DNA of 44,464 nucleotides from Clostridia bacterium (GTDB lineage: Bacteria > Bacillota > Clostridia > Oscillospirales > Acutalibacteraceae): the NCBI GenBank assembly GCA_017625095.1, contig JAGALQ010000002.1, positions 1-44,464 of the forward strand, written 5' to 3'. The translations under genes were made by a program, and so were the position numbers. Below, in pieces: positions 1 to 3,882 of this stretch; within the stretch, counting starts at the first letter, position 1; each line of letters opens with the position of its first letter. Below the pieces are notes generated by a model, which had not been told where the DNA came from, made no database searches, and saw only the letters and a program-made list of their open reading frames with translations.

Positions 1-154
1 CATCGGTAAGCCTGCACAGATCGGGATGCTTTTTGGCATAGGCGGTCAATCTGTTTTTGAGATCGGTGTTGTATGTGTCCACCGTTATCCATCGACTTGC
101 TTCATCGAAGAATATCTCCGTTGTTTTCTGCGACTTTTTAAGTCCGGTTTTCAT
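1..154 (-). CDS. Partial small mobile-element protein (5' end only)
   Basis: Reading leftward from an ATG at 154 there is an open frame of 51 codons that runs off the window edge. It begins MKTGLKKSQKTTEIFFDEAS and is preceded by a good ribosome-binding site (GAAAGGAG about 8 bases upstream). From memory this resembles short conserved proteins of unknown function carried by clostridial integrative elements, which have lysine-rich starts and a later WITVDTYNTDLKNRL-like stretch; I could not verify this. No function can be assigned. It lies in the same orientation as the structured RNA and the VanZ operon, which supports reading the left 5.9 kb as accessory DNA. Confidence 0.6.
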   Translation of the reverse strand, partial: MKTGLKKSQKTTEIFFDEASRWITVDTYNTDLKNRLTAYAKKHPDLCRLTD

Positions 155-656
155 CACTTCACGCTCCTTTCAAAAAATAGCTTGATTTTTCTTGTCTTTT
201 GTAAGTAGGGCATTTTTGACCGATTTTTCACAGTTCAAGACTTGTGAAAAATACGGAATTTTTAATAGGAACACCCCGAACGATGCGGACATCGTCAAAT
301 CCTTTTCTGTTTGAAAAAGTACCGACTTTTACAGTTCAAGAGCCATTTTGCCGTTCTACCCGAATGTCGTTCCTGCCCCTGCTTTTTCAGCGGCGTTGTT
401 TCGCTCGTTTCATCGCAAAATCATATCCCATTCGGACGGTTATTCGGTTGTTAAGTACAAGTGGCTTTTAATTACCCCTCAATAAGTAGCCAGCGAAAAG
501 GGGTAAAATATTCGATTTTTGCAAAAATTTCTCGAAAAAATTTTTATCCCTCAATTAGTAGGCAGCGAGAAGGGCTAAAAATCCAACCTTTTCAAAAAAC
601 TTTTCTATCTAACGTCAAAAATCTTCGATTTTATGCATAGTTTTTCGAAAAAAGGC
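155..656. other. AT-rich intergenic stretch with a duplicated stem-loop motif
   Basis: No convincing gene is visible in these 500 bases; short open frames lack ribosome-binding sites. The stretch contains many A/T runs and the two repeat copies listed separately. It probably carries the promoter and leader of the truncated gene at the left edge. Confidence 0.5.
472..578. repeat. 35-bp direct repeat, two copies, each a potential stem-loop
   Basis: Copy 1 (472-506) and copy 2 (544-578) match at about 30 of 35 positions and start 72 bases apart. Both carry the core CCCTCAATNAGTAG followed by NCAGCGANAAGGG. Copy 1 has perfect 8-bp inverted ends (TTACCCCT at 472-479 and AGGGGTAA at 499-506); copy 2 keeps most of the pairing. 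Each copy is followed by A/T-rich tracts. They could be protein-binding or recombination sites of a mobile element, or RNA stem-loops. I do not recognise a named family. Confidence 0.6.
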
Positions 657-905
657 AAAACAAAAAAGCCGCTACACAGACATCAAGAATCGGCGGGAGC
701 TTTGCTCTCGCTTCAAAATGATGTTCTATGTAACGGCTTTGAAATTCAAAGACGGGACTGTTTTCGCACCCATTCACTCGCTAACAGTACCAAAACGCAT
801 AGAGTGGTGGGTGTCGGTATTTTCTCTTAGCATACCGCTGGCATTGGGTGGCTTTGCCACATCTCAATCTTACATCGTATTCAGTTGTGCCCCTCATTTA
901 AGGGG
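657..905 (-). ncRNA. Structured RNA gene of about 250 nt, unknown class
   Basis: On the minus strand a sigma-A-type promoter (911-939) is followed by a region with no credible coding frame but many paired elements, ending in a Rho-independent terminator. Going 5' to 3' the arms, in plus coordinates, are: 901-905/890-894 (5-bp hairpin at the 5' end); 856-860/848-852 (GTGGC/GCCAC); 832-837/815-820 (6 bp); 808-813/767-772 enclosing 802-806/775-779 (CACCCA/TGGGTG around CACTC/GAGTG); 745-751/737-743; and a long terminal stem 720-740/665-684 enclosing 704-711/693-700, followed by a T run at 667-662. Only very short peptides are encoded. It could be a regulatory sRNA, an antisense or maintenance RNA of the element, or a known Rfam class I cannot identify by eye. 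Confidence 0.75.
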
Positions 906-910
906 ACTAT

Positions 911-939
911 ATTATACCATAAAACCCGCCGCAAATCAA
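911..939 (-). promoter_or_regulatory. Promoter of the structured RNA
   Basis: On the minus strand the -35 TTGATT lies at 939-934 and a perfect TATAAT at 916-911, with a 17-base spacer. Transcription should start near 905, exactly before the first hairpin of the RNA. The -35 lies in the loop of the terminator at 921-958. Confidence 0.75.
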
Positions 940-958
940 GAAATTTACGACGGGTTTT
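921..958 (-). terminator. Terminator of the PadR-SEDS-VanZ operon
   Basis: An 11-bp stem (921-931 with 948-958, one mismatch) has a loop of 16 bases. In the leftward direction it ends in TTTT and sits 54 bases beyond the VanZ stop. It shares sequence with the next promoter, so termination of one unit and initiation of the next are physically overlapped. Confidence 0.65.
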
Positions 959-1011: not shown

Positions 1012-1725
1012 TCATATTTTTTGTTCATCGCTTGAAATAAGTATGTTAATAATTCTCTTGATTGGTTTTGCCTTTAATATTATAAATGCAATGCAAGCAC
1101 CGAAAACATTAAGAATCAAATCGTCAATATCGCACGATCCGGTCACGAAAATCAATTGAAGTAATTCGATTACTATAACTGTTACAGATGTAGAAAGCAC
1201 AAAATATTTAAATTTCTCACATTTTTGAATAAACATTGGTAAAAACAAAGCCATTGGAGTCAAGGCGACTAAGTTACCCAATAAATTAGTTACTATAGTT
1301 GAAAAATTCATACTTTGAGTTAACAGAGCTCTTATATATTCAAAAATGGTAGCAAAAGGAATAATGTTAAATGAATTTGTCAAATAGTTTTTTAATAGCA
1401 CTCGGTCTGATAAAATAAAGTTAATATGTCCATTTCTGCCAAACATAGGATCGAATAATGTAAAAGTTAAAAGCAGAGATAAGTATAAAACGAAAAAAAC
1501 AAAAAATGTTATCTTCATAACTTTATTTTTGCTTATTGTTGGTGTTTTGCATAATATACGGCTACCGATATATGCAAACACACAGAATATTCCGAGTAAG
1601 AACAATCTACCTTCTGGGCTCAATAAAATTCGTGGAAAAATATCAGCAAGCATATATACAACTATGCTAATGGTTGCTATTAAATAAAATGGTATTGATA
1701 CGAGTATAAATTTTATTTTTCTCAT
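1012..1725 (-). CDS. VanZ family membrane protein
   Basis: This 237-residue protein has several hydrophobic segments. It carries the VanZ-like signature: an N-L-L-G-N segment before PMALFLP, then E-L-L-Q, and a GSCDIDDLILNVFGA motif near the C-terminus. VanZ proteins are small integral membrane proteins linked to low-level teicoplanin resistance in Tn1546 and to unknown envelope roles elsewhere; the biochemical activity is not established. The start overlaps the end of the SEDS gene by 4 bases, which indicates translational coupling, with AAGGGATGG as ribosome-binding site. It is the last gene of the PadR-controlled operon. Assignment to the family is firm, but a role in glycopeptide resistance is not implied. 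Confidence 0.88.
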   Translation of the reverse strand: MRKIKFILVSIPFYLIATISIVVYMLADIFPRILLSPEGRLFLLGIFCVFAYIGSRILCKTPTISKNKVMKITFFVFFVLYLSLLLTFTLFDPMFGRNGHINFILSDRVLLKNYLTNSFNIIPFATIFEYIRALLTQSMNFSTIVTNLLGNLVALTPMALFLPMFIQKCEKFKYFVLSTSVTVIVIELLQLIFVTGSCDIDDLILNVFGACIAFIILKAKPIKRIINILISSDEQKI

Positions 1726-3062
1726 TCTTCATCCATCCCTTCAAATGATAATTTTGATATGATTTCATCTATTTTTTGTCGTGTGATTAAAGGTTTCGTC
1801 ACCCTGTCTACCATAATTTCCTCATTTCTAAATACCGATAAAAGTATTCCTAACATTGCAAAATTAATCAAATTGGCAAACGAGCCATATGATACGAACG
1901 GTAAAACCGACAGTGTCGAATTTACTATTCCAAGATTTGATAAAATGTATAATGTTATTTGAACCGTAAAAACTCCAGTAATTGATAGAGTAAACAATTG
2001 GCCTAATACACTTTTTTGTTTTATTGCTGCATTTAAACAGATAATAATTAACGCATAAAACAATGCTACCATAAATCCAAAGGCAAGCCATCCATAACGA
2101 TATAATATAAATGCCAAGATATAGTCCGTATGAAAAATGTCCGGAAAAGGACTTGACAATGTGTTTGCTTGGCCAATCATCTTTGCGTTTAGTGTCATCT
2201 CTTGTAAAAGATTTGGAATATATCCCGCACCAAGTTCGTCATTTGTAGAAACATACCCTAATATTGATAGAATACCTTCTCGTGTGCTTGGTATAGTGAA
2301 TATAACTATAATCATCAATATAAACGGGGAAAGGCATAATAATAATCCTATGCTTCTTTTAATGTTGAACCATTTTCTGTATATCGAAACAGGCGTTATT
2401 ATTAAGGCTATAAACAAACACAGAATAATTCCCAAAATATTGTTTGTAAAATGACAAAATACAAGTAATGTAAGCGTAAAAAGTGTGTTTATTGCAATTC
2501 CGAAATATCCTCTTGTCCTGAAATGATAGATAGAACACGAAAGAGCAAGCGGATATAATAAAGCAATATAATATTTAAAACTTATGTAAAATGGAAAAAT
2601 ACACAAAATAACGGAAAGAAAAAATACGGTTACATAAAAATGAAATGAATATTTCGATAATATCGTAAAATCAATGAAATATGTGACCGTCAGTATTGCA
2701 ATCCCCAATATGTACGAGACAATTTGTGGAGCTATATTGGCTGAAATACTTCCCGAAAGAATTATGATGGATTGTATCAATATACCAACAAAAGATAGAA
2801 TGCCAAGAATAATAAAACAGACAAGTTGATTCTTGGGTCTGTGAATTCTATCCAATTCCGTTCCTATGTATGTTGCATCACCGAAATCATTTATGGCTTT
2901 ATCTGTAGCATCTGCTTCTGTATATCCTGAGTTAATATACTCATCACGTTGCTCTATTAAATGATTTTCGATTTCTCCAAACACAGTTTTATGCGTTTTC
3001 TTCCATCGGATCTGATTGCAAACTATGTTACAAAAATCTGATATTTTATTATCTTGTTGCAA
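1722..3062 (-). CDS. FtsW/RodA/SpoVE-like SEDS protein with N-terminal permease-prefix (HAAS-type) domain
   Basis: Residues 1-77 are soluble and match the helical prefix domain found in many PadR-linked membrane proteins (ending ELDRIHRPK). Residues 78-430 form about ten membrane segments of the SEDS type. SEDS proteins polymerise lipid II into glycan strands; the conserved catalytic-loop aspartate corresponds to Asp313 in FHTDY, and the C-terminal half has the typical VLPFVSYGSFANLINFAMLG stretch. The usual GEELG that follows the catalytic Asp is replaced by RYGW. Start: TTG at 3062 with GGAGG 8 bases upstream, overlapping the PadR stop by 14 bases. It lies in an accessory operon rather than a cell-division cluster, so it is likely a specialised or stress-induced glycan polymerase; that role is inferred. 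Confidence 0.85.
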   Translation of the reverse strand: MQQDNKISDFCNIVCNQIRWKKTHKTVFGEIENHLIEQRDEYINSGYTEADATDKAINDFGDATYIGTELDRIHRPKNQLVCFIILGILSFVGILIQSIIILSGSISANIAPQIVSYILGIAILTVTYFIDFTILSKYSFHFYVTVFFLSVILCIFPFYISFKYYIALLYPLALSCSIYHFRTRGYFGIAINTLFTLTLLVFCHFTNNILGIILCLFIALIITPVSIYRKWFNIKRSIGLLLCLSPFILMIIVIFTIPSTREGILSILGYVSTNDELGAGYIPNLLQEMTLNAKMIGQANTLSSPFPDIFHTDYILAFILYRYGWLAFGFMVALFYALIIICLNAAIKQKSVLGQLFTLSITGVFTVQITLYILSNLGIVNSTLSVLPFVSYGSFANLINFAMLGILLSVFRNEEIMVDRVTKPLITRQKIDEIISKLSFEGMDEE

Positions 3063-3396
3063 AACTTAATCCTCCGTTTAGGACTCTGTTAACGGCTGTT
3101 GAATATTCGTGCCATTCCTTTTCTTTTATCTTCAAAACATCTTTTCCTTTTTCGGTTAAATGATAATATTTTCTCGTGCGTTCACTTGCTGTAGATTCCT
3201 CGTACGATTCTACTATACCATTTTTTTCAAGATTGTGTAAAAGAGGATAGAGTGTTCCTGCTTTTAAGTCAAAAGTATGGTTTGATTTCTTCGCTAAATT
3301 AGAAATCATTTCATAACCATACATATCTTTTTCCTCTAATAATTTCAAAATTAAAACAGTCGTGCTTCCTGTAAGCAAACTTTTATCAATAGACAT
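3049..3396 (-). CDS. PadR family transcriptional regulator
   Basis: This 115-residue protein has the PadR winged-helix pattern: a stretch TTVLILKLLEEKDMYGYEM, then GTLYPLLHNLEKNGIVES (the wing and recognition region), and RKYYHLTEKGKDVL. It is first in a three-gene operon with overlapping genes (PadR, SEDS, VanZ). PadR plus a prefix-domain membrane protein is a recurrent pairing in Firmicutes in which PadR represses the operon until a membrane or antibiotic signal is met. A symmetric operator overlaps its promoter, consistent with autorepression. The C-terminal dimerisation helix is short, as in the PadR-s2 subfamily. Confidence 0.92.
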   Translation of the reverse strand: MSIDKSLLTGSTTVLILKLLEEKDMYGYEMISNLAKKSNHTFDLKAGTLYPLLHNLEKNGIVESYEESTASERTRKYYHLTEKGKDVLKIKEKEWHEYSTAVNRVLNGGLSFATR

Positions 3397-3411
3397 AATT
3401 TACCCCCCCAC

Positions 3412-3458
3412 TATATAGATGACCTATATATTATATATCGATTATCTATATATGTCAA
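3412..3458 (-). promoter_or_regulatory. PadR operon promoter with overlapping dyad operator
   Basis: On the minus strand TTGACA (3458-3453) and TATAAT (3435-3430) are separated by 17 bases. A perfect 7-bp inverted repeat TATATAG-5-CTATATA (3412-3430) covers the end of the -10 and the start site. A second, near-perfect dyad spans the spacer (3433-3452). The layout is that of an autoregulated repressor site. Confidence 0.75.
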
Positions 3459-3470
3459 GGAGAAAATATA

Positions 3471-3502
3471 AACTGCGGTAGGGAGAAAACCCTACCGCAG
3501 TT
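3471..3502 (-). terminator. Terminator after tnpV
   Basis: A perfect 13-bp stem (3471-3483 with 3490-3502) and a 6-base loop follow the tnpV stop by 6 bases. The leftward side ends in TTTATATTTTC, so it closes the tnpV operon before the PadR promoter. Confidence 0.8.
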
Positions 3503-3507
3503 GTGTA

Positions 3508-3882
3508 TTAGGTAAAAATTAACTCTGTATTTACGATTTCTGTGACTTTGTTGCGGATGTTATTCATCCAAGCAACCCATTCCATTTGATTATCCGCCTT
3601 GAGCTTTTCCGTCACGCCTTCACGCTCCGCCATCTGTTTTACGAGCCGAAAAAACATATCCTCAGCCTGTTTGTCAATGTCTGCAAGATAACCGTTCAAC
3701 TTGCCATTTGTTAGCAGATTGGTGTATCGCACCTTGTGATGTTGCTTGATGTACCGTAGGTGTCGTTGTCCCCATACACCAATAGGTTGTTCTTCTTGTT
3801 CAGCAGGCAAAAGATCAGGTAAATAATAATCTCCAACCTTTGTATATGTACCGCCCATTTGCTCAAATATAGTCTTTTTCAT
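3508..3882 (-). CDS. tnpV: Transposon-encoded protein TnpV
   Basis: The 124-residue product matches the TnpV family of clostridial and Bacteroides-associated transposons: an N-terminal GGTYTKVGDYYLPDL segment, a central WGQRHLRYIKQHHKV stretch, and a C-terminal MEWVAWMNNIRNKVTEIVNTE. Its molecular role is not established; it is not a transposase by itself. The ribosome-binding site GGAGGG overlaps the stop of the upstream small gene. It forms a compact operon with the 59-residue protein and the DUF6809 gene, and no transposase is visible here, so the element is either fragmentary or has its recombinase outside the window. Confidence 0.88.
   Translation of the reverse strand: MKKTIFEQMGGTYTKVGDYYLPDLLPAEQEEQPIGVWGQRHLRYIKQHHKVRYTNLLTNGKLNGYLADIDKQAEDMFFRLVKQMAEREGVTEKLKADNQMEWVAWMNNIRNKVTEIVNTELIFT

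Follow-up and report, generated by a model that had tools for sequence, protein, structure and literature searches.

Introduction

A worked precedent for the control of an integrated element by a terminator and an RNA is provided by Tn916, where the terminator T1 stands before the mobility genes and is accompanied by a structured, cis-acting RNA, canT, in Gram-positive hosts (PMC11658703). A further precedent is conAn2 of pLS20 (PMC8955417), and ConAn1/conAn2, put of HK022 and EAR of B. subtilis have in common that a structured RNA opens a long operon with terminators (PMC8955417, PMC11658703). Elements of the Tn4451 family are marked by the large serine recombinase TnpX, by TnpV and by TnpW, and the papers listed in our searches on such elements name no RNA gene before the mobility operon. 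The LexA/SOS regulon of Clostridia, in turn, uses boxes of the GAACN4GTTC/T type, as found before lexA and recA of C. difficile, the lexA operator reading AGGAACAAATGTTTGC; the in silico screen of that work deals with sites near protein-coding genes (PMC4234289).

How does the present locus compare? The window analysed here, a stretch of 44,464 nucleotides at the start of contig JAGALQ010000002.1 of a Clostridia bacterium from the Acutalibacteraceae, carries on its minus strand, at 939-661, a folded RNA gene of about 245 letters, in which sequence and fold show a promoter, then the structured RNA and, closing it, an intrinsic terminator. The setting may be Tn4451-like, in that TnpV is encoded in the window, the recombinase side lying beyond the contig end, and that relatives possess Recombinase/Resolvase, TnpW and relaxase genes. 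With Tn916 it shares a terminator before the mobility genes of an integrated element, a structured RNA and a Gram-positive host; it differs in that the canT region, 452 nt long, lies apart from T1, and in that the passages compared mention no SOS control; the two are likened by description (PMC11658703). The pLS20, HK022 and EAR systems are likened in the same way, and antitermination is only putative for the window RNA. Finally, whereas the C. difficile screen concerned protein-coding genes, the LexA-type boxes described below precede an RNA that is transcribed first. Comparison of its relatives places the window RNA in an RNA family not described before, and it probably helps to decide when the mobile element spreads.

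Results and Discussion

Promoter and layout of the RNA gene

A first-pass annotation of the window had proposed a dedicated, free-standing RNA gene behind a minus-strand TTGATT-17-TATAAT promoter. This promoter is present (Table 1) and matches 10 of 12 consensus positions; such a match alone is not significant, as positions 1-1400 hold two sites of this quality and shuffled sequences a mean of 4.5. The same promoter type recurs in L161, L163, L086, L134 and other relatives, and family members as a rule have their own promoter in addition to an intrinsic terminator. Ahead of the RNA, the promoter score has a median of 9.3 and reaches at least 8.5 in 82 of 106 relatives. In the 330 nt past the terminator, the median is 7.3 against 7.5 in shuffles and 8.5 is reached in 4 of 106, in a scan that stops short of the first open reading frame in some loci (about 500 nt away in the window) and would miss non-consensus promoters.

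The inverted repeat which overlaps the -35 element is possibly the terminator of the upstream cargo genes. In relatives, both arms of the repeat change together, to GTCGC/GCGAC in L161 and CCCGCC/GGGCGGG in L086 (by eye).

Table 1. Positions of the RNA gene, its predicted structural parts and neighbouring features in the window
Feature	Position	Strand	Remarks
TnpV gene	3508-3882	-	Pfam
VanZ-like, FtsW/RodA-like, PadR and TnpV genes	1012-3882	-	Pfam; upstream of the RNA
Inverted repeat AAAACCCGTCG...CGGCGGGTTTT	921-958	-	overlaps -35 of the RNA promoter; by eye
RNA promoter	911-939	-	-35 TTGATT 939-934; 17-nt spacer; -10 TATAAT 916-911, preceded by TG
5' hairpin	890-905	-	905-901 pairs with 894-890; sequence varies among relatives, pairing maintained
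Conserved strand ACAACTGAATA	878-888	-	predicted unpaired
Hairpin 2 (GTGGC-AAA-GCCAC)	848-860	-	fold and alignment
Hairpin 3 (CGGTAT/ATACCG), conserved loop GCTAAGAGAAA	815-837	-	fold and alignment; compensatory T-A to C-G
Pseudoknot stem A	767-813	-	813-808/772-767 and 806-802/779-775
Pseudoknot stem B	755-791	-	791-783 (inside the stem A loop) with 762-755; U789 bulged
Palindromic hairpin CTTTGAATTTCAAAG, conserved	737-751	-	3' half extends into the base of the terminator stem
Intrinsic terminator	661-740	-	stem 740-726/679-665; inner hairpin 711-704/700-693; U-tract 667-662
E2, second structured RNA, separate family	346-451	-	R2 match of 119.1 bits, this copy being also in the R2 seed
KTGLKKSQKTTEIFF-type small ORF, start	1-154	-	cut by the contig end; relatives carry a counterpart

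A conserved fold with a pseudoknot

The minus strand folds with -85.8 kcal/mol, compared with -62.3 (standard deviation 4.6) for shuffled sequences (z -5.1), and none of 200 shuffles is as stable. Since the plus strand folds nearly as well (z -4.8), energy alone cannot assign the strand. The terminator stem of 24 relatives, however, has G-U pairs in 40 cells of the alignment and A-C or C-A in one (summed counts), and from these wobble pairs the minus strand is taken to be the one transcribed into RNA. The same observations bear on a reading in which the conserved structure acts at the level of DNA, as a single-strand origin or another folded single strand used in transfer or replication. Such a reading would agree with the near-equal folding of the opposite strand and with a location upstream of a region taken by eye for oriT, but it is at odds with the G-U pairs kept on the transcribed strand and with the conservation of both the promoter upstream and the U-tract downstream, and we consider it very improbable.

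Common to the family are the 5' hairpin and, after it, the conserved ACAACUGAAU strand, followed by hairpins, by a pseudoknot of the H type, by the palindromic hairpin and by the terminator. The nested stem of the first-pass annotation, 767-772/808-813 around 775-779/802-806, is exact in its coordinates and corresponds to stem A; the pseudoknot which 791-783 forms with 762-755 had been missed. The long terminator stem enclosing a second hairpin is likewise present as described, the inner hairpin being paired at seven of eight positions with one A-C mismatch.

Do these stems hold in the relatives? We compared the pairing of each sequence's own arms, taken by position, with that of arms exchanged between 32 dissimilar relatives, which represent 97 of the 115 sequences left after removal of near-copies (15 atypical ones were left out by name and three for their short upstream part); the segments had been picked after the arms had been seen. 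The terminator stem stands out most clearly (z -10.6, 0 of 5000 exchanges). Pseudoknot stem B (z -5.3) and, with n = 26, the 5' hairpin (z -5.2) were likewise equalled in 0 of 5000 exchanges. The signal of stem A is lower (z -2.1, 98 of 5000), and two pairs of unrelated control segments gave none (z -0.6 and +1.5). Covariation is thus supported for the first three stems and less so for stem A. In alignment A1, 98.2% of the cells of the terminator stem are paired and 5 of its 14 pairs have changed on both sides; its covariation score of 0.209 against 0.147 in shuffles is reached by none of 500 of them, and its number of further pair types by 13 of 500. An alternative pairing that would free the terminator was sought by eye and not found.

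The arms of stem B illustrate how sequence changes while pairing is kept, reading GGUACUGUU/AACAGUCC in the window, UGUCUGCC/GGCAGACA in L088, UAUGCUGCC/GGCAGCAUG in both L142 and L147, and GAACUGUC/GACAGUUU in L012. A free search for pseudoknots in single sequences does only slightly better than shuffles (median z of -1.05; in 42 of 112 sequences, no more than 3 of 60 shuffles do equally well), so that the pseudoknot claim rests on comparison among relatives.

No conserved reading frame

The first-pass annotation had seen no credible coding frame, and the relatives agree. Open frames at the window RNA extend to at most 80 aa, and chance frames in single homologues to 86 aa in sense and 79 aa in antisense orientation, with medians of 27 and 37. 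Among 53 homologues, the spacing between the ACAACTGAAT motif and the 3' domain falls into all three frames (20, 19 and 14 cases). In the 19 sequences matching the hairpin-3 motif, the T of an ATG changes together with its partner (T/A in 16, C/G in 3, mixed in none). This co-variation of the start codon, together with a spacing that does not proceed in threes, argues that the RNA encodes no peptide, no protein frame being conserved in either set. A short peptide beginning MLREN was considered as a candidate and rejected, its start codon being lost through compensatory base-pair change in 3 of the 19.

An RNA family of clostridial mobile elements

That the RNA might belong to an already listed class, as the first-pass annotation had allowed, is not borne out at the gathering level of Rfam 15, where the window has no match; sub-threshold matches score 15-21 bits, all below gathering. 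The lowest E-value among them (0.22) falls on the terminator and belongs to RF00489, ctRNA_p42d, a plasmid antisense RNA; at 19.3 bits, where gathering would call for 50, the window RNA is not a member of it. In 12 related loci, Rfam finds only a tRNA. Thousands of candidate RNAs from human microbiomes have been described (PMC8040213), and a term search of the main text of that paper gave no hits; the RNA may stand unnamed in its supplements. Among the papers listed in our literature searches, none deals with an RNA linked to SOS control in elements of this kind.

Relatives, on the other hand, are readily found. BLAST returns matches in 21 of 300 genomes of the host's family, and the host genome (G000) itself has three copies, a second one with 71% identity and one more at the end of a contig (C13:3-106). 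R1, which models the 3' domain from 24 sequences, detects the RNA in 41 of 398 sampled family genomes, in 27 of 394 order genomes and in 2 of 398 phylum genomes, both of the same order; these are samples of larger groups and include the window's own genome, and some entries among the matches merely reflect the reverse strand of a locus already counted. Scanning the genomes of named species for the motif yielded 110 stretches, and among the 80 of them that are listed are Lachnospiraceae, Oscillospiraceae, Acutalibacter, Erysipelotrichales including Traorella, one Streptococcus and others. Blastn searches with the window RNA in phage and plasmid records, blastn searches with two relatives in plasmid records, and an exact-motif scan of viral contigs all gave no match.

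In total, 163 hits were collected, of which 115 were left once near-copies had been removed; the collection skipped duplicates from the same site and left out L105, L138, L140 and L143 (4 of 100 loci, which have no R1 match) as well as L183, L186 and L187 (3 of the ten loci L181-L190). Members measure about 170-290 nt with a median near 240, as estimated from promoter and model positions. With these 115 relatives, covarying stems, the lack of a conserved frame and mobile-element neighbours, the proposal of a non-coding RNA dedicated to a mobile element of Clostridia finds support; its free-standing nature is uncertain, because the RNA stands at the head of the mobility genes and could serve as the leader of their operon. 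In L105, an otherwise window-like copy, unrelated sequence replaces the terminator half after TTTGAAG.

Position ahead of the mobility genes

The neighbourhood count drew on 82 loci, in which mobility genes were tagged by simple sequence patterns. Downstream sequence of at least 2.5 kb is present in 50 loci, of which 33 have a co-oriented tagged gene there and one has a tagged gene on the opposite strand; of the 52 loci with 2.5 kb upstream, none has a tagged gene on that side. The downstream tags are recombinase (25), relaxase (23), NikA/MobC (16), ParB (6), Mob_Pre (4) and small ORF (1), and Pfam finds NikA-like, Relaxase, Mob_Pre, ParB, TnpW and Recombinase domains in example loci. The 17 of 50 loci without a downstream tag are explained in part by the simplicity of the patterns. 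The KTGLKKSQKTTEIFF-type small ORF of the window is represented in relatives, and its relative in L007 has no Pfam match. Genes upstream of the RNA differ between loci, and those of the window are probably cargo. A conserved protein of about 146 aa, which by eye looks sigma-like or of helix-turn-helix type, is encoded some 0.9 kb ahead of the RNA in 22 loci, L164 among them.

How is this arrangement to be understood? With promoter, RNA, terminator, the second RNA E2 and the operon all co-oriented, the simplest account is an operon leader. A stand-alone small RNA that acts in trans, pairing with or sequestering outside targets such as host mRNAs, other elements or a protein, regardless of any read-through, would have no need of a position before a mobility operon. 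The window RNA does have the promoter and terminator expected of a candidate of this kind, forming a complete unit from the one to the other, and it would be just as likely to have a strong terminator that is conserved; the sequence conservation of the GCTAAGAGAAA loop and the ACAACTGAAT strand and the presence of three copies in one genome would suit it as well. Antisense pairing to the downstream operon was considered and rejected: in 24 loci, three conserved segments show no clear excess of matches to the 3 kb downstream, the mean longest match being 6.5, 6.6 and 7.7 against 6.3, 6.6 and 7.1 for shuffled segments, with matches of at least 9 in 2, 2 and 3 loci where about one is expected. 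We regard a trans-acting RNA as less likely than the leader.

LexA-type boxes in the promoters of relatives

The case for a leader gains a regulatory side from the promoters of the relatives. Among 111 relatives with at least 230 nt upstream, 47 have a LexA-type box, [AG]AACN4GTT[CT], in the promoter region (shuffles: mean 1.69, maximum 5), and 22 of the 111 have the strict form GAACN4GTTC (shuffle mean 0.12); as kinship among sequences inflates these counts, a less redundant set was compared, in which the box occurs in 30 of 74 (shuffle mean 1.36, maximum 5). In many family members it sits between the -35 and -10 elements: of 48 boxes, counted from the first base of the -35, 25 begin 9 nt and 20 begin 5 nt further on, and three have no -35 in range. 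Cultured carriers of a copy with such a box include Merdimmobilis hominis An559 (L148) and Traorella massiliensis (L128). The host genome uses the same form elsewhere, with AAACAAATGTTT and AAACATATGTTC before its lexA gene and GAACATTTGTTC before a gene read by eye as NAD-dependent DNA ligase, and its second copy of the RNA carries such a box (TTGACAAACAAATGTTCCATGTGGTATAGT). The promoter of the window copy (TTGATTTGCGGCGGGTTTTATGGTATAAT) and 64 of the 111 relatives have none; a third promoter type, found at many Lachnospiraceae loci, also lacks it. Membership in the LexA regulon is thus a matter of operator sequence in 47 of 111 relatives, at which LexA binding is putative, and does not extend to the window copy by this measure.

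We favour, with a probability of roughly one half, an SOS-linked leader RNA whose terminator would attenuate and insulate the mobility operon of Tn4451-like elements. Sequence comparison shows the RNA family with its structure, the LexA-type box and the place before the mobility genes; LexA binding, read-through and any effect on transfer are our inference. In copies with a box, LexA would hold the promoter off; upon DNA damage, transcription would start and the leader would fold. Most RNA polymerases would then halt at the leader terminator, yielding a discrete RNA, and a fraction might read through into E2, the transfer region, mobC/nikA, the relaxase gene, tnpW and the recombinase gene. The terminator would at the same time shield the mobility operon from transcription originating in the cargo or the host. 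Since the window promoter has no LexA box, control there would depend on the RNA together with the terminator, or else on a different regulator. About one in ten sampled family genomes carry the RNA, in mobile elements, and if it is an SOS-linked leader, DNA damage would be tied to element mobilization via an RNA step that is invisible to protein annotation. One promoter, one RNA, one terminator and one operon make for a compact, testable system.

E2, a second structured RNA

Between the first RNA and the mobility genes lies E2, for which Rfam has no match. Its model, R2, was built from 25 sequences, in which 11 of 26 pairs have changed on both sides (a number reached by 3 of 500 shuffles). 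With a covariation score of 0.355, E2 also exceeds the shuffled value of 0.208, and 0 of 500 shuffles come up to it. E2 is found in 63 of 396 family genomes. The motif of the first RNA led to 100 loci, of which R1 matches 96. R2 matches 44 of the 100 at E up to 0.1; the match is downstream and co-oriented in 43 and upstream in one, L174. A less redundant set of 50 of these loci includes 23 with E2.

The mobility operons whose leaders carry E2 encode serine recombinases or, in L255, a tyrosine recombinase. Among 20 E2 loci, chosen for the lack of a nearby R1 match except for L258, several sister elements have a strong promoter just before E2 (by eye; L244, L250, L253, L255, L259 and L262). A helix-turn-helix regulator is divergent from E2 in L253, L255, L259 and L260 (Pfam tested for L255), and in L255 genes for a tyrosine integrase and a NikA-like protein follow downstream.

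These sister elements bear on a further reading, that of a cis-acting processive antiterminator of the canT, put or EAR kind, in which the RNA would bind its own polymerase and carry it through its own and later terminators, so that the mobility operon would be expressed only by transcripts from the element's own promoter. The window RNA fits this kind in position and structure: it opens a mobility operon, a strong terminator follows immediately, and its conserved fold includes a pseudoknot. At the start of the leader, however, the sister elements have E2 and not the first RNA, so that E2 may be the better antiterminator candidate, and for the first RNA we consider this function unlikely. A combination of the two would be a transcription gate of two RNAs at the head of clostridial mobility operons, with E2 joined to an SOS-switched, pseudoknotted antiterminator leader; damage would fire the promoter, and only polymerases bearing the folded RNA would pass the insulating terminator. 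This we offer as a speculation of low probability.

In L249 and L254, divergent leaders with LexA-type boxes precede E2, where R1 misses or barely scores (22.4 bits in L254); such boxes with other leader sequences suggest that the RNA family may exceed what R1 detects. In L258 (G076:C16), the promoter with the LexA box is preceded by sequence similar to the 3' half of E2, and the promoter-RNA unit looks as if inserted between E2 copies. The window has, at 473-505 and about 546-578, two hairpin-forming repeats of the TACCCCT...AGGGGTA type (reverse strand GCTGGCTACTTATTGAGGGG), and by eye similar repeats are found upstream of E2 in L245, L248 and L257.
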